A stretch of 51,323 bases of DNA, from positions 1 through 51,323 of IMG/VR virus record IMGVR_UViG_3300022542_000213. One strand, written 5' to 3'. Under the pieces are notes generated by a model. The model worked only from the letters and a program-made list of their open reading frames with translations, made no database searches and was not told the origin of the DNA. This DNA is from a virus. Both the position numbers and the translations under genes were made by a program. This document shows, piece after piece, positions 1,108 to 43,843 of the stretch (its first letter is position 1; each line of letters begins with the position of its first letter).

Positions 1108-1341
1108 ATGAAAGAAGAACCAACAAATGGAGAATTAAAAATAGCACTTGACAATATCATAGATAAGTTGAGTGATTTAGCTGTATCTAATGATGAAGGT
1201 CATAAAGGTATTATGGATAGACAAGATTTAACTAATGGTAATGTATTAAAGAATACAAAGTTTAGATGGGCTACATCTGCTATCATAGGATTTGTAACAA
1301 TAGTAGGTATAGGTAACGTAATAGCAATATTTATAATATAA
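1108..1341 (+). CDS. Holin-like coiled-coil membrane protein
   Basis: About 77 residues: a charged amphipathic N-terminal half and one hydrophobic C-terminal segment (ATSAIIGFVTIVGIGNVIAI). This layout resembles XhlA-type holin or holin-associated proteins, which act in the inner membrane. An upstream TTG at 1093 could also start it and has an AGGGA sequence before it. The ATG at 1108, in an A/T-rich TATATG context, matches the usual start style here. The next gene follows by TAATATG. The lysis role is inferred from layout only. Confidence 0.45.
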   Translation: MKEEPTNGELKIALDNIIDKLSDLAVSNDEGHKGIMDRQDLTNGNVLKNTKFRWATSAIIGFVTIVGIGNVIAIFII

Positions 1342-1342
1342 T

Positions 1343-2119
1343 ATGGAACAAGAATTACAAAATCAAATAGATGAATTAAAACAGACTACTGAAGATTTGT
1401 CAAATCAATTAGAAATATCTAATCAAAGATTACAAGATATTGACCCTGTAAATCTTTTAAGTCTTAATTTAGATGTAGCTTCTCAAAGAACTATAACAAG
1501 TGTAATTGAAAAAAGTATTGATGATATTGTATGGAATAAATACTTTTATTATTCTACATTTATAGAATCAATAGCAAGATATTTCCAAGAAACAGGAGTA
1601 GGTGGAGCTATAGGTTTAAATGCAAATGGTCTAAGTTTAGCTGTTTCAAATACAACAGATGATTATGCCTCTGTATCATTAGATATCCTTGATTTAGTTG
1701 CTGATTCAGATATATTAAGATTTGATAAGGAAACAAAATTTAGAACACAATTAAAGATTGATGTTGTAGATGGTGCAGATTTGTCAATAGGTGGTGTTGG
1801 TACGTTACTACATAATATTCAATTTTTAATAGAAGATGGAACAATTAAAGCTTTCACATCTAATAATTCAAGTTCAACAACAGTAAATATTGGCTCAGTC
1901 GCAGATGATACTTATGTTAAATTAGAATATAGATATTATCCGAAGAGTCGTGCTGATTTTTATATAAATGATATACTTGTTAAATCAATATCAACTACAC
2001 TACCACTAACTACTGTTGGGACAGATAATGTATTTAATGCAAGTTTAGTCAAAAACTCAGGTACAGCAGGAGAGAAGGAAGCTTTTATAATGTTTTACGA
2101 TATAATACAAAGAAAATAA
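1343..2119 (+). CDS. Tail or receptor-binding protein with N-terminal coiled coil
   Basis: A 258-residue protein. Residues 1-33 form a heptad-type coiled coil rich in Gln, Leu and Glu, likely a trimerisation stalk. The remainder is beta-rich with a LamG/concanavalin-like flavour (strands around FRTQLKIDV, KLEYRYYPKSRADFYINDILV). Such a stalk-plus-sandwich design is common for receptor-binding or fibre proteins. It sits in the tail block between a holin-like gene and a large virion protein, with TAATATG junctions on both sides. No catalytic motif is visible. Confidence 0.5.
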   Translation: MEQELQNQIDELKQTTEDLSNQLEISNQRLQDIDPVNLLSLNLDVASQRTITSVIEKSIDDIVWNKYFYYSTFIESIARYFQETGVGGAIGLNANGLSLAVSNTTDDYASVSLDILDLVADSDILRFDKETKFRTQLKIDVVDGADLSIGGVGTLLHNIQFLIEDGTIKAFTSNNSSSTTVNIGSVADDTYVKLEYRYYPKSRADFYINDILVKSISTTLPLTTVGTDNVFNASLVKNSGTAGEKEAFIMFYDIIQRK

Positions 2120-2120
2120 T

Positions 2121-3668
2121 ATGCAATTAATTATAGATTTATCAGGAAGAGAAGGATTAGCACCACGTTTTTTTGGAGATGTGGGTAGTTCTTCTAGTTC
2201 ACCAAACCTTAGATATTTAGGAGCAAAAGGTCAAGTGGCTGAGGGTGTTTATAATCCTCTAAGAAAATATGGTTACATGTGTGCTTCAGAAGCGACCTTT
2301 AGTGATGTAACTGTGGCTAGTGGAGCACCAGGAGAAACATTTACAACCTCTATTTATGATCCAGTAAATGATGATTTTTATGTTTCAGGTGGACAAAAGG
2401 TATATAAAGGAACAGATCTAACTGTAAGTGATGTAGCTTCTGTATTAGATCTTGGGTCAACTGGTACACCAACAATGTTAGACTTTGAAATTTATATGAT
2501 AAATGATGTTCAAAGACTATTCTATCTATACGAAAAAGGTGGAAATATGCTTTGTGGAGAAGCAGTATTGCCATTTGCTTCTGCTAATAGTGATTGGTTA
2601 GATACAGACGTTTCTGGAGCATTTACAAATGGTCTAACTAACGCATCAGCATTTATGAGAGTAGCTGATAATGGATTTATGTACATCTTCCAAGATAATA
2701 ATATACATGTAGTTGATGGTACAGGAGAAGGAGGAGCAACAGGAACTGTTACAGCTAATGTTATTCAATTCCCAATTACATTCTCAATAATTGATGCTAT
2801 TGATTATAAAGGATATATAATGGTTCTTATTAAACAAACAACTAAACTTACAGCTACAAAAGCTAATGTTAGTTATGGTGTATATGTATGGGATAGACAA
2901 TCAACTGTGGTTAATTCAAGAGACTATATACCTCTTACTGGAATTGATCGTGCACATAAAATATATGTAGCTCCAAATGGTAATGTAAGACTAATGGTAA
3001 CTAAACCAAATGAAATTACTGAAATTAGAGAATATACTGGAGCAACATTTAAACCAATACAAGAAGTAGGTATTAATGCACAACCAGAATCACTTGATGG
3101 TTTAACACAGATGGGAGAACTAACTGTGTGGTTATCAAATGATAAATACGTGCTTGCACATGGAAGTATTCTACCAGGAGAGAAAGAAGGTTTATTTAGA
3201 TTAGGAAAAATAGTAGATGCTTCTTCTATTACAGCAGGTGCAATTATATATGGTAATAATGGTTTATATTTATCTTATCTTGGTCAAGCTTTTGAATTTG
3301 TTCATTGGAATATCAATGGGACTACAACAGCAGCACAGGGTGATATATATACCTTAGTACAATATTTACCTCAAATGTCAACAGTAAAGAACGTAGAAAT
3401 ATATTGTTCTCCAATAACAAATACAGGAACAACAAAAGTAGCTGATATTAAAACCTACTTTAATCAATCTACAACAGCATTTAAGACACATAATGCAGAT
3501 AGAGACCAAGTATCAAGAGGATATGTAGATTTTGAGTTAAATAAACCGTTTGTTAACTCAATTCAGTTAGAGATAGAACACAGTACTAACGGAACTAATG
3601 AATTTTGTCCTTCATTTGCTGTAGTTGAATACGAACCAACCAAAACAAAAGGCTCAAAAGCTAGTTAA
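2121..3668 (+). CDS. Large beta-rich virion protein
   Basis: A 515-residue protein without a recognisable catalytic motif. The N-terminal part (LRYLGAKGQVAEGVYNPLRKYGY) is followed by many short beta strands with repeated Asn, Gly and Thr turns, consistent with a propeller-like or other all-beta virion component. It lies between a receptor-binding candidate and a protein with a head-tail adaptor-like start. Tail hub or baseplate is a reasonable guess but is not shown. It ends just before a strong promoter serving the next gene. Confidence 0.45.
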   Translation: MQLIIDLSGREGLAPRFFGDVGSSSSSPNLRYLGAKGQVAEGVYNPLRKYGYMCASEATFSDVTVASGAPGETFTTSIYDPVNDDFYVSGGQKVYKGTDLTVSDVASVLDLGSTGTPTMLDFEIYMINDVQRLFYLYEKGGNMLCGEAVLPFASANSDWLDTDVSGAFTNGLTNASAFMRVADNGFMYIFQDNNIHVVDGTGEGGATGTVTANVIQFPITFSIIDAIDYKGYIMVLIKQTTKLTATKANVSYGVYVWDRQSTVVNSRDYIPLTGIDRAHKIYVAPNGNVRLMVTKPNEITEIREYTGATFKPIQEVGINAQPESLDGLTQMGELTVWLSNDKYVLAHGSILPGEKEGLFRLGKIVDASSITAGAIIYGNNGLYLSYLGQAFEFVHWNINGTTTAAQGDIYTLVQYLPQMSTVKNVEIYCSPITNTGTTKVADIKTYFNQSTTAFKTHNADRDQVSRGYVDFELNKPFVNSIQLEIEHSTNGTNEFCPSFAVVEYEPTKTKGSKAS

Positions 3669-3671
3669 TAC

Positions 3672-3700
3672 TTTACAAATAACAAAATAAATGCTATAAT
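3672..3700 (+). promoter_or_regulatory. Sigma70-type promoter, near-leaderless
   Basis: TTTACA at 3672-3677, a 17-bp spacer, and an extended -10 TGCTATAAT ending at 3700. The expected start at about 3707 lies only two bases before the ATG at 3709, so the transcript should be nearly leaderless. Confidence 0.75.
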
Positions 3701-3708
3701 ACACAAAT

Positions 3709-4956
3709 ATGTCACTAACAACAGCTAATATTATCACACAAGTTGATACTTATATAGGAGATTCATCAACAGATAGAGTTTCCGCAGCCCAAAGATTACA
3801 ATCTATAACAGAGGCTTGTATTTGGGTTCAAGAAGAACTAGGTAATGACTTACAAAATTATACCGAAACTATATTATACTATGATACAGTAAATTACTAT
3901 AAAGTAACTACTGATATAGCTGATTTATTACAAGGAGCTGACTTAAGAAGAGAAAAAGACGACCAATATTTCTCATTTACACCAGTATCTGCAAGAGAAT
4001 TAGCTGAAATGGTAGGTCAAAAACAATCGGAATCTGCTTGGACAATAGAAAGAAGAGATACAGATGCTTATGTAGGTATTAATCATAATTCTAAACATAC
4101 AGCTAAGATAGTATCAGACTTTGATTCGACTACTTCTGGTGGTGGAACATGGGCTGTGGATGCAACCAATTCAGATGCTACTAACTTAACTGTAGATACA
4201 AATGAATTTAAACAAGGTACTGCATCACTTAATTTTGATATTGATGTATCTCAATCAGGTAATAATAGAGCTACTCTTGTAAATAGTACATTCACAACAT
4301 CTGATTTATCAGACTTTGAAGATTTAGCAGCTTGGTTGATGTGGGTTTATGTACCAGATGTAACTGAATTTACTTCAGTAACTATGTTCTGGGGTTCAGA
4401 TTCATCTAATTACTGGTCTGTAACAGCTACAACTGATATGGATGGAGCTTCATTTGCAGATGGTTGGAATAGAGTTAAAGTAGATTGGTCAGATGCTACT
4501 AAAACAAGCTCTCCTGACGTAGAGAATATTGATTACTTGAGAATAGACTTGAATTATGGAGCTGGACAAGGAGATGATACAGATTACAGAGTTGATTATT
4601 TAATATTAGCAAGACCAGAGAAACTAACTTACCATTATATTTCATGGAAGGTAGGGGTAGATAATTCTGGAGATGATATACTAAAGTTTGGTGCAACTAC
4701 AGATGTACCTTATTTCTCAGGTATGTATGACCAGTTACTATATCCAGTCGCACATAAAGCCGCTTCATTGTTGTTTAATCCAACATTAAGATTACCACAA
4801 GAAGCACAATTAGAGGAAGTAGAAGCATTAAAAGCATTAAGAAGAGTTAGAAGACTAATCCCTTCATCACGTGTTAAAGAAGTAAAGAGTTTCAAAGTTA
4901 AAGGAGTAAGCTTTGCTAGACGTAACAGAGGAAGAAGAGGTAATATAATAAGATAA
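3709..4956 (+). CDS. Virion protein, adaptor-like N-terminus with embedded beta domain
   Basis: A 415-residue protein. The helical N-terminus (residues 1-40, with DRVSAAQRLQSITEACIWVQEE) resembles the helical starts of phage head-tail or tail-tube-associated proteins. Residues about 130-300 form a beta-sandwich-like insertion with many Trp, Asp and Ser residues. The C-terminus is strongly basic (ARRNRGRRGNIIR), suggesting contact with DNA or an acidic virion surface. It has its own promoter, whose predicted start nearly coincides with the ATG. A connector or neck role is inferred. Confidence 0.45.
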   Translation: MSLTTANIITQVDTYIGDSSTDRVSAAQRLQSITEACIWVQEELGNDLQNYTETILYYDTVNYYKVTTDIADLLQGADLRREKDDQYFSFTPVSARELAEMVGQKQSESAWTIERRDTDAYVGINHNSKHTAKIVSDFDSTTSGGGTWAVDATNSDATNLTVDTNEFKQGTASLNFDIDVSQSGNNRATLVNSTFTTSDLSDFEDLAAWLMWVYVPDVTEFTSVTMFWGSDSSNYWSVTATTDMDGASFADGWNRVKVDWSDATKTSSPDVENIDYLRIDLNYGAGQGDDTDYRVDYLILARPEKLTYHYISWKVGVDNSGDDILKFGATTDVPYFSGMYDQLLYPVAHKAASLLFNPTLRLPQEAQLEEVEALKALRRVRRLIPSSRVKEVKSFKVKGVSFARRNRGRRGNIIR

Positions 4957-4957
4957 T

Positions 4958-6253
4958 ATGGCAGAATCAAAACCAATTTCAGATAAAGAAGTAAACGACT
5001 TGTTAAAACAAGGTTTCCAAGAAGGAGACACAGTACCTGGTAGAGGGAGACTTTCGCCTTCTGGTACTTTTATAACCGAAGACGCACCTACTAATATAGC
5101 AGAGACAGCAGGTCTTACAGGAGGAGGTAGTTCTAAAACTACAACTACTACTAAGACAGGTGGTACAGGCACAACAGATCCTTTCCTAGATCAATTACAA
5201 CAAAAGCTATTAGGACAAGCAGGAATTATATCATCAGGACAAACAGGTCTTGAAGCTAAAATTCAAGAAGCTATTAGTGGTGTATCAAAATCACAGGAAG
5301 CTAGTGCTGCAGGATTAGAAATTGGTGCAGAAAGAGCTATTAGTGGTGTAAGAGAAGCTGGTGCTCAAAAACTAACTTCTGCTAGAGAATCTCAAAGAGG
5401 ATTTGGTGTTAACCGTGCTGCTTTAAAACAGATAACAGATGAAACTCAAAAATCTGTACGTGATTTAGAAGGTAGAAAACAAGAACTCATCTTATCTGGT
5501 GAAGCTGCCGCTGCTTCTAAAATAGCAGAGTTACAATTTAGTGCTTTAGAATTCCAACAACAAGCGATGCAACAAACATTCTCTAATCTATTACAAGTAG
5601 GTGGATTTGCTATAGAGAAATCAAGAGAAAGTAGATTACAAGCAGCTCAAACAAGTCAAGAGAAACAACAAATTGCTTCAATTGCATTAGAGTTTGGATT
5701 ACCTGTAACAGAAGGAGAAACATTAGATACTATTGTAGCTAAGGCTTCACCTTTTGCAACAGAACAACAAAGACTAAAGATGCAGAAGACTCGAGCTGAA
5801 ATAGCTAGGATTCAAGCAGAAACTCAAAAGGCATTAGCTGGACAAGACTTTGCTTTCGATCAACCATTAGCATCATCAATTGCTAATACATTAAACAACT
5901 TGTTAACTTCAACTGATCCTTTTGCAGCTCAATCTATTGAAGCTATATTAGGAAACGTAGTAGATAAACATGGAGCATCTGCACTTGAACAGATAAAAAG
6001 AGAACAAGAATCATTAAGAAATGAACAATTCTCTTCAGATAATTTAAGGTCTGATATTTCAGAAGATATACAATCTGGTGCTTCTCGTAGAGATATAAGC
6101 GATTCAATTGAATCTAATCAACTTATGAACCCAGAACAAAGAGAAGAGGCAACTAATATTCTAAATGAATTGTCACCTAGACAACCATCATTATTAGATA
6201 GAGCATTTACAGATATTGGTGATACATTATTTGGTTCTCAACGTAATAGATAA
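4958..6253 (+). CDS. Helical internal virion protein candidate
   Basis: A 431-residue, mostly alpha-helical protein rich in Gln, Ala, Ser and Glu, with long low-hydrophobicity helices from about residue 80 to 300 and a Thr/Gly-rich linker near residues 50-70. Together with the next, much larger gene it has the look of the internal or ejection proteins of podovirus-like phages, which enter the cell with the DNA. No enzyme motif was seen. It starts in a TAATATG junction. Confidence 0.45.
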   Translation: MAESKPISDKEVNDLLKQGFQEGDTVPGRGRLSPSGTFITEDAPTNIAETAGLTGGGSSKTTTTTKTGGTGTTDPFLDQLQQKLLGQAGIISSGQTGLEAKIQEAISGVSKSQEASAAGLEIGAERAISGVREAGAQKLTSARESQRGFGVNRAALKQITDETQKSVRDLEGRKQELILSGEAAAASKIAELQFSALEFQQQAMQQTFSNLLQVGGFAIEKSRESRLQAAQTSQEKQQIASIALEFGLPVTEGETLDTIVAKASPFATEQQRLKMQKTRAEIARIQAETQKALAGQDFAFDQPLASSIANTLNNLLTSTDPFAAQSIEAILGNVVDKHGASALEQIKREQESLRNEQFSSDNLRSDISEDIQSGASRRDISDSIESNQLMNPEQREEATNILNELSPRQPSLLDRAFTDIGDTLFGSQRNR

Positions 6254-15923: not shown

Positions 15924-16007
15924 TTATTCGTGCTGATCACATTCTTGATCACAATGACATGGTTCTAATAAACTACAGCCACATTCTAAGCATTCATCAT
16001 CCATCAT
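15924..16007 (-). CDS. 27-residue Cys-rich micro-protein
   Basis: Encodes MMDDECLECGCSLLEPCHCD then QECDQHE: six cysteines and two histidines in 27 residues, enough for one or two zinc sites. It fits tightly between its neighbours, with TAATATG before and TAAAATG after. Likely a small zinc protein; function unknown. Confidence 0.6.
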   Translation of the reverse strand: MMDDECLECGCSLLEPCHCDQECDQHE

Positions 16008-16008
16008 A

Positions 16009-16554
16009 TTATTCTAGTTTAAATGTTTCTTTAATAAGTTCACTCGGTATATCATGTACTTTACTAAGACTACCTGTTTGTATAGACTTCTTCATAATAA
16101 GATATTCATAGGTCTGTTCTTCTTCTGGGTTCTTACTTTCGTATATCTTTTCTCTAAAGTCTTTCTGAGATAACATGGTTGCATCAGCCAACAAATCTGC
16201 TACTTCGTCAACATCATCTGTACCTTTAACAAGAGGTAATAAGTAGTGTAGATTCTTAACTGGTACTTCTGATACAGTCTCTATAGAGAAACCTAATCTT
16301 AATACAAAGTTTTCGTAAATCTGAATTAATCTATTAGCTTCCCCTTTGGACAATCCAATTTCTGGTTGTTGTAAATACTCATTCCAAGTATCTATACCTT
16401 CACCCACTACGTTCTTGAAACTCTCATCTTGATCCAAGTGATAAAGCATACGCCCCATTAATACGAAGTTCTGCTTTGCATTTACCACAAGTTCTAATAA
16501 GAATTTATGGTAATCATAAGGTGTATATTCAACTGTTATACTATTCTCCTCCAT
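16009..16554 (-). CDS. Hypothetical helical phage protein
   Basis: About 181 residues, largely helical. IGLSKGEANRLIQIYENFV and VPVKNLHYLLPLVK resemble segments of phage proteins that look like helix-turn-helix or ParB-type domains, but the match is not firm. A TTG at 16566 also starts the frame; the ATG at 16554 overlaps the previous gene by 14 bases and is preferred. Its place between the nuclease and OB-fold genes suggests a DNA-metabolism role. Confidence 0.5.
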   Translation of the reverse strand: MEENSITVEYTPYDYHKFLLELVVNAKQNFVLMGRMLYHLDQDESFKNVVGEGIDTWNEYLQQPEIGLSKGEANRLIQIYENFVLRLGFSIETVSEVPVKNLHYLLPLVKGTDDVDEVADLLADATMLSQKDFREKIYESKNPEEEQTYEYLIMKKSIQTGSLSKVHDIPSELIKETFKLE

Positions 16555-24196: not shown

Positions 24197-24267
24197 CTCT
24201 CTCTGAAGGAATCGAACCTTCGTATTTCGGGCTTCAACCGAACGCTTTACCACTAAGCTAAAAGAGA
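24197..24267 (-). tRNA. tRNA-Phe (anticodon GAA)
   Basis: Full cloverleaf on the minus strand: 7-bp acceptor (24267-24261 with 24204-24198, one G-U), D arm GCTT/AAGC, anticodon stem TTCGG/CCGAA with loop TTGAAGC, and T arm GAAGG/CCTTC with loop TTCGATT. The discriminator is G rather than the usual A, and CCA is not encoded. It is embedded between protein genes of the leftward transcript. Confidence 0.93.
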
Positions 24268-36036: not shown

Positions 36037-36420
36037 ATGATACTAAAAATCGACCAAAAAGTTTATCCAGTAGATATAATATTTGCATGTGATGAATCAC
36101 CAACTAGAGTTAATAACTGGTTTAAAAAGAATTATGGTATAAATGAATATGACTTTAGCTTACAAGCTACAGGAGAACATATTTTTCTATCATCTGAAAG
36201 AGAAAATAAGAATCTATCTTTTATACAAATAGGTAGTTTTAAAAGAAATAATGTTAGAGATATGCAAATTCTAGTTCATGAGATATATCATTCTGTTATC
36301 TCTGTTGGAGATCATTTAGGATTTCGTGATGAAATAGGAAGCAGTGAAGCTGGTGCATATCTTTATGATTGTATCTTAGGAACTATACTCGAAAAGTTAT
36401 GGATGAAAAAGAAAAAATAG
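36037..36420 (+). CDS. HExxH zinc metallopeptidase-like protein
   Basis: 127 residues. ILVHEIYHSVISVGDHLGF contains HEIYH, the zincin motif, and IGSSEAGAYLYD supplies a possible third ligand Glu downstream. Similar short phage metallopeptidases are seen near packaging genes, but their target is unknown. It starts one base after the upstream stop and overlaps the large terminase by 22 bases. Confidence 0.7.
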   Translation: MILKIDQKVYPVDIIFACDESPTRVNNWFKKNYGINEYDFSLQATGEHIFLSSERENKNLSFIQIGSFKRNNVRDMQILVHEIYHSVISVGDHLGFRDEIGSSEAGAYLYDCILGTILEKLWMKKKK

Positions 36421-38090
36421 ACCAAGAAACTAAATTAAGTCTCTTAAATAGAAAGGAGAACGAAAGAAAGAAGAGAGTACTTGATGAGTATATAAATAGT
36501 GAAGAATATCAATCTAAGCTTCTAATGAGAGCTAAGCTTTTTGATGCTACCAAAACAGGTAGAAAAGACTTTCTTTTGTCTAGAGCCAGACTATATGAGT
36601 TATGTAAAGGTATACAAGAAGATGGTTCTTATGATCCAGCAGCAGGTTGTATATTCTTTATAAATAACTTTGGATGGACATATGCTCCTAAATTAGTTAC
36701 CAGTAGTAGTAAATCTAAACATCTTCCTTTTATATTATTTGGATTCCAAGAAGATGCTATTAGATGGTTTATTGAAAGAATAGAGAGTGGTGAAGATGCC
36801 TTTGCTGAGAAGTCTCGAGATATGGGAGCTTCTTGGATTCTCTTTGCTTATGTATCATTATGGTATTGGTTATTTGTAGAAGGTACAAGTATCCTTATGG
36901 GTTCTTATAAAGAAGTTCTTGTTGATGATGGTACACCAGCTTCTTTGTTTGGTAAGGTTCATTATGCAATAGAATCATTACCAAAATGGTTAATACCTAA
37001 AGGATATAATCCAAAAAAGCATAGAACCAAACTTAAAATAATTAGACCTGATAATGGTAATGTTATTCAAGGAGATACAATGAACCCTAACTTTGGTCGT
37101 GGTGCTAGGCATACAGCTATTTTATTTGATGAATTAGGATTCTGGGATTATGCTAAAGATGCTTGGGAAGGTTGTGCTGACTCTACAAACTGTAGATTAG
37201 CTAACTCAACTCCTAATGGTTATAACTACTATGCTATGCTTAGAGAAATGCCTATTAGTATTCATACTATGCACTGGAAAGAACATCCACTTAAAGATGA
37301 TGATTGGTATGAATATGAAAAGTATACTCGTACTCCAGAGTCTCTTGCTCAAGAAGTGGATATATCCTATTCTAAATCTCTAGAAGGTAAAGTATATCCT
37401 GATTGGAATGAAGTTAATATTGAACAAGGTATCTTTGAATATGACCCATTACTACCATTATATGTAGGATGGGACTTTGGTAAGACTGATGATACAGCTA
37501 TGATATGGTGTCAACCTAACAGAGGTAAATTAAGAATTATTGATACATATAGAAATGCTGCTAAGACTATTGATTTCTATGTTCCTTTTGTAACTGGATA
37601 TGTTTCTTCTGAGAATCATCTCTATACACCAAAAGACTTAGAAAAGATTGATAGACATAAACAATGGAAGAAAGGAACTCACTTTGGTGACCCAGCAGGA
37701 AGATTTCAAAATAATGTTGTAGACCAAACAGTAGTTGACGTATTAAGAGATAATGGTATAATAATTAACTTCCAAGATAAGTGGAAATACTTTAAAGCTA
37801 GAAAGGAAGCTACACGTCATTTAATATTAAACGGTATTGAACTTAATATTAACTCTGATACCAAGTGGTTTAACACATGTATGATGCAAGCAGCTTATCC
37901 AAAAGTAAAAAGAGAAGGAGTTGATTTTACTAATTCAGAGAAACCTAAACATGACTTTACATCTCACTATAGATCAGCATTTGAATATCTTGCTTTAGGA
38001 TTAAGAGATATGGGTAGACGAAGAGTAAAGCCAGTAGATAAGTTTCCAAAAGAAGGTCGTTTTAAAAGAGGTAGAGTAATAGGATATTAA
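36399..38090 (+). CDS. terL: Terminase large subunit
   Basis: About 563 residues. AFAEKSRDMGASWILFAY holds a Walker A-like motif (near residue 135), TAILFDELGFW is Walker B with the catalytic Glu, and YVGWDFGKTDDTAMIW and HFGDPAGR supply acidic residues of the RNase H-like nuclease. It translocates DNA into the prohead and cuts it. The frame opens at a TTG (36369), but the ATG at 36399, overlapping the peptidase gene, is preferred. Confidence 0.92.
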   Translation: MDEKEKIDQETKLSLLNRKENERKKRVLDEYINSEEYQSKLLMRAKLFDATKTGRKDFLLSRARLYELCKGIQEDGSYDPAAGCIFFINNFGWTYAPKLVTSSSKSKHLPFILFGFQEDAIRWFIERIESGEDAFAEKSRDMGASWILFAYVSLWYWLFVEGTSILMGSYKEVLVDDGTPASLFGKVHYAIESLPKWLIPKGYNPKKHRTKLKIIRPDNGNVIQGDTMNPNFGRGARHTAILFDELGFWDYAKDAWEGCADSTNCRLANSTPNGYNYYAMLREMPISIHTMHWKEHPLKDDDWYEYEKYTRTPESLAQEVDISYSKSLEGKVYPDWNEVNIEQGIFEYDPLLPLYVGWDFGKTDDTAMIWCQPNRGKLRIIDTYRNAAKTIDFYVPFVTGYVSSENHLYTPKDLEKIDRHKQWKKGTHFGDPAGRFQNNVVDQTVVDVLRDNGIIINFQDKWKYFKARKEATRHLILNGIELNINSDTKWFNTCMMQAAYPKVKREGVDFTNSEKPKHDFTSHYRSAFEYLALGLRDMGRRRVKPVDKFPKEGRFKRGRVIGY

Positions 38091-41030: not shown

Positions 41031-41059
41031 TTGCTTTTTATTAATTAGTATGTTATAAT
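41031..41059 (+). promoter_or_regulatory. Late promoter for scaffold and capsid genes
   Basis: TTGCTT (41031-41036), 17-bp spacer, extended -10 TGTTATAAT (hexamer 41054-41059). Expected start near 41066, giving a leader of about 194 bases. Confidence 0.75.
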
Positions 41060-41065
41060 AGCAAA

Positions 41066-41259
41066 AAGGATTAATTAGATTAGTCCGTGTAGGGTATAGA
41101 GCACTTCGGTGCGAGGTCGGTACTATATCTTACACAGACTACTTTAAGTAGTCCATATAGTGTTGCAACTAGAGGACTCAACCTCACTAAGATCGAGTGG
41201 ACTCAACCACATTAAAAAGGGAGATTTTTATTAAAAAGGGAAGTTAAAAAATAAACATT
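41066..41259 (+). ncRNA. Structured leader RNA of the capsid operon
   Basis: 41081-41099 pairs with 41123-41141 in an 18-bp helix with one mismatch; two G-U pairs fit only the plus strand. It encloses GCAC-TTCG-GTGC, a UUCG tetraloop hairpin (41101-41112). Downstream GAGG-ACTCAA-CCTC (41172-41185) and GTGG-ACTCAA-CCAC (41197-41210) are two hairpins with the same loop and compensating stems. Such a structure may stabilise or regulate the most abundant late mRNA. Confidence 0.75.
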
Positions 41260-41970
41260 ATGACAGATTCAAAACAGAATCCTGAAGTGAATCCAGGCGA
41301 CGAGGGGGAAGTCGTAACTCTTTCAAAGGAAGAGCACAATAAATTAGTCGAAGAAAATGCTAATTTAACCCAAGACAAGAGTAATCTTGTTGGCGAAATT
41401 ACTGAATTGCGTGAAAAAAAGCAACTCACTGAGGACGAAAAAGCAGAGTTAACTACAAAAGTTGAAGAACTTGAGAAAAGCGGAGACGCTGGAACTAAAG
41501 TCGAAACTGATGAAGTTAAGACTGTAGCGGAAGAAGTTGTAAGTAAAATTCTTTCACAGAATGAAGCTAAGATTCGTAAAGAAACTTTGCAGAAAGCTAT
41601 GGATAAATTTGTACAAGAGAACCCGCAATTCTCGAAAGAGAATGATGAAGGTGGACTTAAAAAGTCTGCATTCGATAAGAAGTTAACTATGTTTAACTTA
41701 GACAATTTGAAAACTGAAGATGAATTTCTTATAGCTTTCAAAGATGCTAATAGCTTGTTAGGTGGTAAACCAGTTGAAGAGCAACCAGAGAATAATATTC
41801 CTGCTGCTACAGATACAGGAAATGCCCCTGACCCAATTGATATACATGAATTATCTGCTAAAGAAGTAAAGATCGTAAATGACTTTATGGAAGGTGATAA
41901 GGAAAAGTATATTAAGATAAAAGCTAAGCGTCCTGACTATGTTGCTAGTTTACTTCGTAATATTTATTAA
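41260..41970 (+). CDS. Scaffolding protein candidate
   Basis: 236 residues, acidic, with a long coiled coil (about 20-80: SKEEHNKLVEENANLTQDKS and ITELREKKQLTEDEKAEL) and a helical C-terminal half. Acidic coiled-coil proteins directly before the capsid gene are usually scaffolds that shape the prohead and then leave. GC use is slightly higher at its start than in its neighbours. It is led by the structured RNA. Confidence 0.7.
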   Translation: MTDSKQNPEVNPGDEGEVVTLSKEEHNKLVEENANLTQDKSNLVGEITELREKKQLTEDEKAELTTKVEELEKSGDAGTKVETDEVKTVAEEVVSKILSQNEAKIRKETLQKAMDKFVQENPQFSKENDEGGLKKSAFDKKLTMFNLDNLKTEDEFLIAFKDANSLLGGKPVEEQPENNIPAATDTGNAPDPIDIHELSAKEVKIVNDFMEGDKEKYIKIKAKRPDYVASLLRNIY

Positions 41971-41992: not shown

Positions 41993-42511
41993 ATGAGCTT
42001 TACAAAAGCAGGTAGTCTAGACTCACAAGGAGCACCAGTAATGAGAAATAGTATTATTACTAACTCAGTTGCCCTAGTTGTTTCAGACTCCGTAAAAAAC
42101 GTAAGTGGTTTCCTAGCTTTAGGAACTGCTGGAGTTGCTGTATTTGGTCATGTGGATTCTATTGTAACATTTAAGGACACAGGTATGGAAACTACAGGTG
42201 TTGCTGGTTCAGAGAGTGGGAGTTATGTAGGTGCTTTTACAGCAGCTTCAGACAACCAAACTGTTGCTAAGGTAAGTGGAAAATGTGATATTTCACAAGA
42301 AACACTTTACTCAGCAGAACTAGACGCTACTATCGGTACTACAACAGGTTCAAACCTATTGAATTACAGATTAGACCTTATTGATGAAGATACTCTTGAT
42401 GAGTCTTCAGCAGTTACAACTACAGCTCAGTATTATAACTGGGGAGTAGATCCACTAAATTCAGCACGAATCATAGTGAGCATATTTGAATCAGAAGTAT
42501 TTAACACATAA
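41993..42511 (+). CDS. Head decoration protein candidate
   Basis: 172 residues, beta-rich, with Gly, Ser and Thr turns (VSGFLALGTAGVAVFGHVDS, SYVGAFTAASDNQTVAKVSG). Its place between scaffold and major capsid genes fits a decoration or stabilising protein. No motif decides this. Confidence 0.5.
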   Translation: MSFTKAGSLDSQGAPVMRNSIITNSVALVVSDSVKNVSGFLALGTAGVAVFGHVDSIVTFKDTGMETTGVAGSESGSYVGAFTAASDNQTVAKVSGKCDISQETLYSAELDATIGTTTGSNLLNYRLDLIDEDTLDESSAVTTTAQYYNWGVDPLNSARIIVSIFESEVFNT

Positions 42512-42517
42512 TAAACT

Positions 42518-43474
42518 ATGGAATCTAGAGGAACATGGACAGACCTTATCCCAGACGTAGGACTTAAAATCTCCGATGTCTTCGATCAAGGTGATGATCT
42601 ATATACACCAGGTATCCTGAGTCTACTTAATGTTAATAGTGGTTCAGGTGCTCAAAAAAACTTCACTGGTAAGACAGGTTTTGGAGAAATCTCAAAATTT
42701 GCTGAAGGTGACAACATTCCAGAAATTACACGTTACAAAACTTATACTACTAAAGTTATTTATAATAACTATGGTGGATCAGTTAAAGTAACTAAGAATA
42801 ATATTGAAGATAGAGACTTCAACACTCAGTTAAATGAGATGAAAGATATGTCTCGATCTACAAATTATGCTGTAGACAAGGCTGGAATGCAATTATTCAA
42901 TGGAGGTTTTGCCACAACTGTTAACGTTAGCGGTTATGACATGACTTGGTACAACGATGGTGTACCACAATTCTCTACTATACATCCAACAGTAGTACCA
43001 GGAGGTAGCACACAATCAAATGCTTCATCTACAAGTATCATTTTGTCTCACGACAATTATGAAACTGCTAGATTAGCACTTGCATTGCAGCAAACTGACA
43101 ATGGTCTAGCTTTGACAATGGCTGGAAAGAACACTTTAGTTCTTCCTATCGCATTGGAAAAGAAAGCTATGGAAACAATAGGATCAGAATTGACTCCAGA
43201 AAGTGCAAATAATGCACTTAACTTCTTCAGAGGTTCAACTGATATTGTTACATCCAAGTTCTTGGATAGTAATTCTTCAGTAGCATGGTATTTGATTTCC
43301 CAAGGAGATCATATGCTATCATATGACACTCGACAAGAGAAGAGACTAGAACAGGATACTGATATCCTTTCTAAGACTGTAACCTTTACAGTTGATGCTC
43401 GATGGGCTAACGCTTCATTGGACTTCAGAGGTACATGGGGGTCTAAGGGAACTAACGCAGATTACTCAAGCTAA
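42518..43474 (+). CDS. Major capsid protein
   Basis: 318 residues. FAEGDNIPEITRYKTYTTKV, MSRSTNYAVDKAGMQLFNGG and DGVPQFSTIHPTVV are typical of HK97/Mu-like capsid proteins, where the FSTIHP segment is common. ISQGDHMLSYDTRQEKRLEQ and VTFTVDARWANASLDFRGTW close the fold. It forms the icosahedral shell. Position after scaffold and decoration genes supports the call. Confidence 0.85.
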   Translation: MESRGTWTDLIPDVGLKISDVFDQGDDLYTPGILSLLNVNSGSGAQKNFTGKTGFGEISKFAEGDNIPEITRYKTYTTKVIYNNYGGSVKVTKNNIEDRDFNTQLNEMKDMSRSTNYAVDKAGMQLFNGGFATTVNVSGYDMTWYNDGVPQFSTIHPTVVPGGSTQSNASSTSIILSHDNYETARLALALQQTDNGLALTMAGKNTLVLPIALEKKAMETIGSELTPESANNALNFFRGSTDIVTSKFLDSNSSVAWYLISQGDHMLSYDTRQEKRLEQDTDILSKTVTFTVDARWANASLDFRGTWGSKGTNADYSS

Positions 43475-43498: not shown

Positions 43499-43554
43499 GT
43501 GGAGTACGTTAAACTCCACCTCGCTATTATTAAAAACTCTAATCTCCGAGTTTT
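43499..43554 (+). terminator. Two hairpins after the capsid gene
   Basis: GTGGAGT (43499-43505) pairs with ACTCCAC (43513-43519); AAAACTC (43533-43539) pairs with GAGTTTT (43548-43554). The second resembles a partial terminator or an RNA processing site that would set capsid mRNA level above downstream genes. Confidence 0.55.
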
Positions 43555-43567
43555 AATCTACAGAGGA

Positions 43568-43843
43568 ATGAGATACAATATTTACAAAAAACATTCTACT
43601 CGACATGAAAGATTATTCTATGAAGTGCTTAAAGAGATGAAAATTCCCTTCAAGCACAGATGGATAATCCATGGAAAAGAGATAGACTTTGTTATAGGAG
43701 AATATGCAATAGAAATAGATGGGCACGAACAGGATACTGATAAGAATGAATTTTTAATCAATCATGGATATATCCCTATTCACTTACATAATTCAGAGAT
43801 AACAAAAAAGAATATTATAAAACTAATTAAACAATTATGTTAA
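43568..43843 (+). CDS. Vsr/DUF559-like endonuclease
   Basis: About 91 residues: TRHERLFYEVLKEMKIPFKH, RWIIHGKEIDFVIGEYAIEI and DGHEQDTDKNEFLINHGY match the small PD-(D/E)XK fold of Vsr and DUF559 proteins (Glu, Asp, Glu-x-Asp). These are often free-standing homing nucleases. The upstream ATG at 43568 is preceded by AGAGGA. It interrupts the structural genes, supporting a mobile gene. Confidence 0.7.
   Translation: MRYNIYKKHSTRHERLFYEVLKEMKIPFKHRWIIHGKEIDFVIGEYAIEIDGHEQDTDKNEFLINHGYIPIHLHNSEITKKNIIKLIKQLC

Follow-up and report, generated by a model that had tools for sequence, protein, structure and literature searches.

A conserved tandem pseudoknot in a phage head-operon leader that may gate translation at the start codon

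Results

Head genes and putative promoter

The stretch of DNA analysed here, termed the window, is a virus record of 51,323 bases whose head genes occur in the order terminase, a gene for a 128-residue protein, portal, a gene for a 100-residue protein, an intervening leader, a scaffold-like gene, a gene for a 172-residue protein and the major capsid gene (Table 1). The scaffold-like product has no Pfam match at E 0.01; given its position and composition, it presumably is a scaffold. The capsid gene is separated from the gene that follows by a small gene (43499-43843) whose product we take, by eye, to resemble a Vsr/DUF559-type nuclease; a homologue is present in 8 of the 22 loci of the terminase scan described below, several loci ending short of the site.

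Ahead of the leader lies a putative sigma-70 promoter, whose TATAAT hexamer (41054-41059) is 17 bp from TTGCTT and from which transcription would be expected to start at about 41066. It is absent from the list of a consensus scanner, its first hexamer falling under the scanner's cut-off. Among the 49 distinct leaders described below, 40 have TATAAT or TATACT at most 260 nt upstream of the first twin hairpin, as opposed to 13.3 expected in shuffled sequences, and a promoter upstream of the leader is what these sequences suggest. Given this predicted promoter, positions 41066-41262 would constitute the 5' leader of an mRNA encoding the scaffold-like and Mu gpT-like capsid proteins. In several window genes the ATG follows a TATAAT-like box at a distance of only some 15-35 nt, which suggests that their leaders are very short.

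Table 1. Positions of the head-operon leader elements and of genes around them in the window
Feature	Position	Strand	Basis
Terminase gene	36399-38090		
Putative sigma-70 promoter, TTGCTT-17-TATAAT	41031-41059	+	Read from sequence
Optional long 5' hairpin: 18-bp core plus outer extension; apex without UUCG cap in the model	41068-41154	+	Fold, pairing probabilities
P0, 5' strand (pairs with 41254-41262)	41156-41164	+	Minimum free energy (MFE) fold; duplex energy permutation
Hairpin 1 (hp1), GAGG ACTCAA CCTC; loop 41176-41181	41172-41185	+	Sequence and comparison
Hairpin 2 (hp2), GTGG ACTCAA CCAC; loop 41201-41206	41197-41210	+	Sequence and comparison
A-rich linker and motif 1 (m1); GGG 41219-41221 pairs with loop 2, 41202-41204	41211-41222	+	Covariation, 49 leaders
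A-rich linker and motif 2 (m2); GGG 41238-41240 pairs with loop 1, 41177-41179	41230-41241	+	Covariation, 49 leaders
P0, 3' strand (includes AUG, 41260-41262)	41254-41262	+	MFE fold; duplex permutation
Scaffold-like gene, 236 residues	41260-41970	+	Open reading frame; kin in relatives by phmmer
172-residue gene between scaffold-like and capsid genes	41993-42511	+	Open reading frame; comparison with relatives' gene
Major capsid protein, Mu gpT-like	42518-43474	+	PF10124, E 1.8e-8; PHROG major head families

Fold of the leader

The leader, folded as 199 nt, has an energy of -56.2 kcal/mol (z -5.35), a stability equalled by none of 200 shuffled sequences. A preliminary description of this region had proposed a highly stable 18-bp helix with a UUCG tetraloop. 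The helix is recovered, as segments of 5 and 13 bp interrupted by a single-base bulge and including G-U pairs, at pairing probabilities near 1, and the stretch 41080-41142 by itself is indeed highly stable (z -5.98); the cap is not predicted (probability 0.001 for the C(UUCG)G pairs), because the apex favours another register. Most relatives likewise have a stable hairpin, of unrelated sequence, between the -10 box and hp1; about 8 of 40 leaders lack it or form it only weakly. Within one head-operon leader (L057:4754-4825) a tRNA-Met (CAT) gene takes the long hairpin's place, its acceptor stem being lengthened by complementary flanking bases.

Occurrence among relatives

A terminase scan identified 22 related contigs, all of which, where long enough, share the window's gene order, and a scan with a capsid alignment identified 80 loci, 60 of which have at least 43% identity. 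(Terminase and the capsid alignment thus succeeded where the window capsid protein alone, scanned against viral contigs, found no relative.) Among these 60, the twin-hairpin element is present at all 56 loci that have the leader region on the contig; contigs that start inside or after the leader (L098, L101, L104 and L108) were not counted. Elements were called by an automated detector, except for three (L094, L112 and L117) called by eye and by model. The 57 parsed rows, which include the window and L038, were reduced to 49 by removing near-identical leaders; L056 and L094 lie outside this set and, by eye, both obey the loop-motif rule given below. L094 (3762-3877) has a third hairpin inserted between hp1 and hp2, with both loop-motif pairings retained.

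Across 83 sources (988,369 bases) a covariance model found 60 leaders, most of which are in the model or are near-copies of its members, together with one chance match (window 16005-16046, E 3.8); the element was never seen twice in these scanned loci, each having one site only. A twin-pattern search returned 13 stretches, corresponding to real leaders on seven contigs and, in six cases, to repeats within coding-like sequence, and the 34 stretches matching the pattern GGACTCAACCNCANTAA were judged to be at about chance level and set aside. A nucleotide search with the leader against 50,697 phage records gave no match, and none of the 4227 Rfam families (including STAXI, preQ1 and pan) matched it credibly at gathering thresholds, the window's only Rfam match being a tRNA at 24197-24267. 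Neither Rfam nor the literature listings that were searched gave a description of this leader. Two of the related contigs are rich in tRNA genes: L040 has, at 1152-5018, 23 of them and a tmRNA gene just before its terminase gene, and L041 has 20.

Twin hairpins

The twin hairpins hp1 and hp2 stand as first described, with a common ACTCAA loop on stems that differ (GAGG/CCTC versus GTGG/CCAC). Alone they are thermodynamically unremarkable (z -1.6); their significance comes from comparison. Stem pairs are retained in 98.5% of cells for hp1 (four pairs) and in 96.3% for hp2 (five pairs), with many two-sided changes among leaders, which strongly supports the proposal of the preliminary description that RNA structure is under selection upstream of the capsid genes; in homologous leaders, where it had suggested looking for lost pairing, pairing is kept. 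The mechanism that it implied, in which a fixed ACTCAA loop is recognised as such, finds no such support: ACTCAA occurs more often than any other loop (19 of 49 at hp1, 16 of 49 at hp2), but others include GCATAA, ACACGA and TCCTAC, and nearly every position of these mostly six-base loops varies. Because loops change together with their downstream partners, it is pairing rather than loop sequence that is conserved.

Crosswise loop-motif pairing

Those partners had been overlooked. Downstream of the hairpins are two identical ATTAAAAAGGGA boxes (41211-41222 and 41230-41241), which pair with the two loops. Across the 49 leaders the pairing with these A-flanked GGGA motifs is crosswise: the hp2 loop pairs with motif 1, and the hp1 loop with motif 2. 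By eye, loop and motif change together as CUC with GGG, CAU or CAC with GUG, UCCU with AGGA, and GCCU with AGGU. This was quantified by comparing the class of loop position 3 (pyrimidine or purine) with that of the motif (GG or GU), using a motif-picking rule that is blind to the loops. Concordance is 48/49 for hp2-m1 (Fisher 1e-11), L081 being the single exception, and 47/47 for hp1-m2 (Fisher 1.6e-8), where two leaders without an hp1 class under the rule were left out. The swapped pairings are at chance (hp1-m1, p 0.21; hp2-m2, p 0.66), which rules out that loops pair with the nearest or wrong motif.

Strict 3-bp pairing likewise occurs in 46 (hp2-m1) and 45 (hp1-m2) of 49 leaders versus 25.4 and 35.7 after permutation, levels reached in none of 3000 permutations; with tails permuted among leaders, the true pairings reach z 5.5 and 3.4, and the swapped combinations stay at -0.2 and 0.4. 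Such permutation tests keep some effect of relatedness, but the swapped and displaced controls, which are equally related, show nothing. On a capsid-protein tree there are 9 changes in loop 2 and as many in motif 1, with 5 each in loop 1 and motif 2. Changes in hp2-m1 are joint in 7-8 of 8 independent pairs (p 0.008-0.016); those in hp1-m2 are joint in all 3 of the independent pairs that well-supported branches provide, a number too small to be significant from the tree alone. U-G pairs are frequent (24 of 49 at one position); since the complementary strand would have A opposite C at such places, it is the mRNA strand that carries the structure. At hp2, 28 of 47 rows leave loop position 1 unpaired, and the linker from hp2 to motif 1 is A-rich and 7 nt long in 31 of 49 leaders (range 6-11), which fits the loop of a compact H-type pseudoknot. 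In the MAFFT alignment motif 2 and some motif 1 rows are out of register, so that the 72% pairing of helix 4 is a lower bound.

An outer stem over the start codon

The window's MFE fold contains a further overlooked helix, termed P0, which ties up the AUG by pairing 41156-41164 with 41254-41262. For each of the 49 leaders, the 30 nt before hp1 were paired as a duplex with the segment that begins at motif 2 and runs through the AUG: the cognate energy is -8.50 kcal/mol versus -5.56 for permuted partners (z -9.9; 0 of 5000 permutations), and there is no such signal in control regions 30-60 nt upstream (z +2.4) or 8-29 nt downstream (z 0.0). The AUG lies inside the best P0 duplex in 39 leaders; P0 is weak in some, such as L127, L112 and L083 (rank 47, 45 and 38 of 49).

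The distance from motif 2 to the AUG is 1-29 nt and that from hp1 to the -10 box is 14-177 nt (14-28 nt in the six whose upstream stretch is shortest); because the latter varies far more, the element appears tied to the AUG rather than to the promoter. Shine-Dalgarno-like sequences precede 50 of 471 genes in these phages versus 42 in shuffles. With no excess of such sequences, the GGGA motifs are not Shine-Dalgarno sequences, and a reading of the AAGGGA boxes as a 'twin Shine-Dalgarno' was ruled out.

Distant leaders and host

Seven more distant leaders (L128, L131, L137, L140, L141, L144 and L147), at about 31-36% capsid identity, each contain a single hairpin with a loop that could base-pair with sequence immediately upstream of the AUG. 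Their summed complementarity is 70 versus 53.1 in shuffles (2 of 2000), two of the seven being individually below 0.05, and by eye four have an outer 4-bp stem whose sequences all differ, each complementary to its own partner. This is suggestive of a candidate single-hairpin pseudoknot in distant phages; in the remaining distant capsid-scan loci that were inspected the element was not found.

As to the host, scanning species genomes with the capsid alignment gave no match. The terminase-alignment scan matched contigs of an 'archaeon' MAG (58%), a Parcubacteria MAG (44%) and Patescibacteria (30%), besides matches of 28-41% in many phyla, which gives only a hint of a Patescibacteria host. Matches of the R1 model in those three MAGs (E 0.14-0.74) were put down to chance once the alignments of the best three had been inspected. 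The contig L150, whose terminase is 58% identical to that of the window phage, was placed in an archaeal MAG, probably through a binning error.

Discussion

A probable gate on head-operon translation

Comparative evidence thus shows two hairpins, crosswise loop-motif pairings, an outer stem P0, a position at the AUG and, within the scanned loci, a single copy. The combination of a conserved structure that buries the AUG, its restriction to one gene and the lack of a Shine-Dalgarno sequence leads us to favour a gate on head-operon translation: we think it rather probable, though well short of certain, that the leader is a tandem pseudoknot that gates translation by sequestering the start codon. 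In other words, a conserved, doubly knotted RNA that ties up the AUG of the first gene is probably a switch or brake on shell synthesis. As in a translational operator, the 5' leader has a conserved pseudoknot and the initiation site is occluded in computed folds, P0 covering the AUG in 39 of 49.

Mechanistically, RNA would be made from the promoter just upstream, and P0 would form, its 3' strand holding or abutting the scaffold start codon and its two strands enclosing the adjacent hairpins; loop 2 would pair with motif 1 and loop 1 with motif 2, yielding a compact, nested double pseudoknot that ends at the AUG. In this closed state the AUG and the stretch on which the 30S subunit lands would be buried, and therefore, we propose, initiation would be limited. 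Output would be set either by the ribosome opening the structure or by a ligand stabilising it, for which free scaffold or capsid protein would be the most natural candidate; the closed state would repress and a head protein would be the signal. A fuller version, in which the double pseudoknot closed by the AUG stem is a two-state initiation switch that senses free head protein, and in which the single-knot form is ancestral or alternative, is tentative and on present evidence doubtful. If it were true, this start-codon module would be unlike known bacterial initiation signals, and scaffold and capsid output would be matched to assembly.

Alternative explanations

In the main rival, the double pseudoknot would take over the role of the Shine-Dalgarno sequence as a landing or standby structure, attracting the 30S subunit, perhaps via S1, for high capsid output; it is the main rival because the tisB pseudoknot helps 30S and S1 to bind and is required for this (PMC7708055). 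The absence of a Shine-Dalgarno excess, the element's position directly at the AUG and its A-rich linkers agree with such a role. We nevertheless consider it unlikely, given that in 39 of 49 leaders the AUG is part of the P0 duplex, that its spacing of 1 to 29 nt is not what a positioning device would show, and that other genes of these phages do without the element. More improbable still is that the 5' hairpin and knotted domain shield head mRNA from decay that depends on the 5' end, as stable structures at the 5' end do for T7 gene 10 and ompA: protection would account for a stable hairpin a few nt past the expected start in many relatives, and for hp1 itself being 14-28 nt from the -10 box in the six leaders of shortest upstream stretch, but it needs neither exact loop-tail nor AUG pairing, and about 8 of 40 leaders lack the 5' hairpin or have a weak one while keeping the AUG knot.

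Very little can be said for recognition of ACTCAA itself as the binding site of a phage protein, as the preliminary description implied, for the loop, though the commonest at both hairpins, varies widely and in step with its downstream partner. Hardly credible, too, is an antitermination RNA read by RNA polymerase, of which the put RNA of HK022 and EAR are examples: a position ahead of the head operon and two hairpins near the 5' end are shared, but this element appears tied to the AUG rather than to the promoter, contains the start codon in P0 and serves one operon only. We give equally slight credence to a small-molecule riboswitch derived from compact preQ1-like pseudoknots. A short stem, a second helix of 3-4 bp and an A-rich third loop do recall class I preQ1, but a six-nt loop is too short for a ligand pocket and nearly all of its positions vary; with mostly six-base loops and no Rfam match, the leader falls outside preQ1-I.

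Relation to known systems

The rpsO operator, which controls S15 and has a Shine-Dalgarno sequence, is a cellular system with one pseudoknot and is not known to be homologous to the phage leader. In both, a pseudoknot sits where translation of the controlled gene begins; in rpsO, S1 is reported to melt this pseudoknot, a step that S15 hinders (PMC3858243). Among phages the closest documented case is the gene 32 mRNA pseudoknot of T4-type phages (T4, T2 and RB69), a translational operator for gp32 that lies 67 nt upstream of the start codon and that a 2010 review calls maybe the only viral pseudoknot in translational autoregulation (PMC3014915). Like the window leader, it is a phage mRNA-leader pseudoknot upstream of an AUG and adjoins an A+U-rich stretch, and translational autoregulation may be common to both (PMC3014915). 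It is, however, a single pseudoknot, belongs to a gene for a single-strand-binding protein and occurs in different phages, whereas the window leader has two nested pseudoknots and a stem over the AUG, and precedes scaffold and capsid genes.

The STAXI motif shares the tandem arrangement, with two or three copies of a pseudoknot (PMC2864571), but these are serial repeats near Ssb, topoisomerase, antirestriction and integrase genes, whereas the knots of the leader are interleaved at the start codon of a capsid operon and give no Rfam STAXI match. The tisB leader pseudoknot also acts on initiation but is activating, with a single-stranded standby site some 100 nt distant from a toxin gene's ribosome binding site (PMC7708055); by analogy, a structure so near the AUG could also aid initiation. 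Intergenic-region (IGR) IRESs are reported to function in E. coli without their pseudoknots, through S1 (PMC9458429). In sum, the leader would be a variant within the pseudoknotted translational operators.

In P22, free scaffold represses its own synthesis, by post-transcriptional control. We know of no RNA element common to that system and the window leader, for which P22 is a functional lead only.

Conclusions

It has long been asked how tailed phages keep scaffold and capsid synthesis in step with assembly, and few answers exist at the level of RNA. The leader is compact and portable, and because its pairings are known and natural compensatory variants exist, the idea of a start-codon gate is directly testable; the covariance model, moreover, can be used to find more such leaders. 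As far as the sequence comparisons go, this would be a clear instance of control at the start codon in genomes that do without Shine-Dalgarno sequences.
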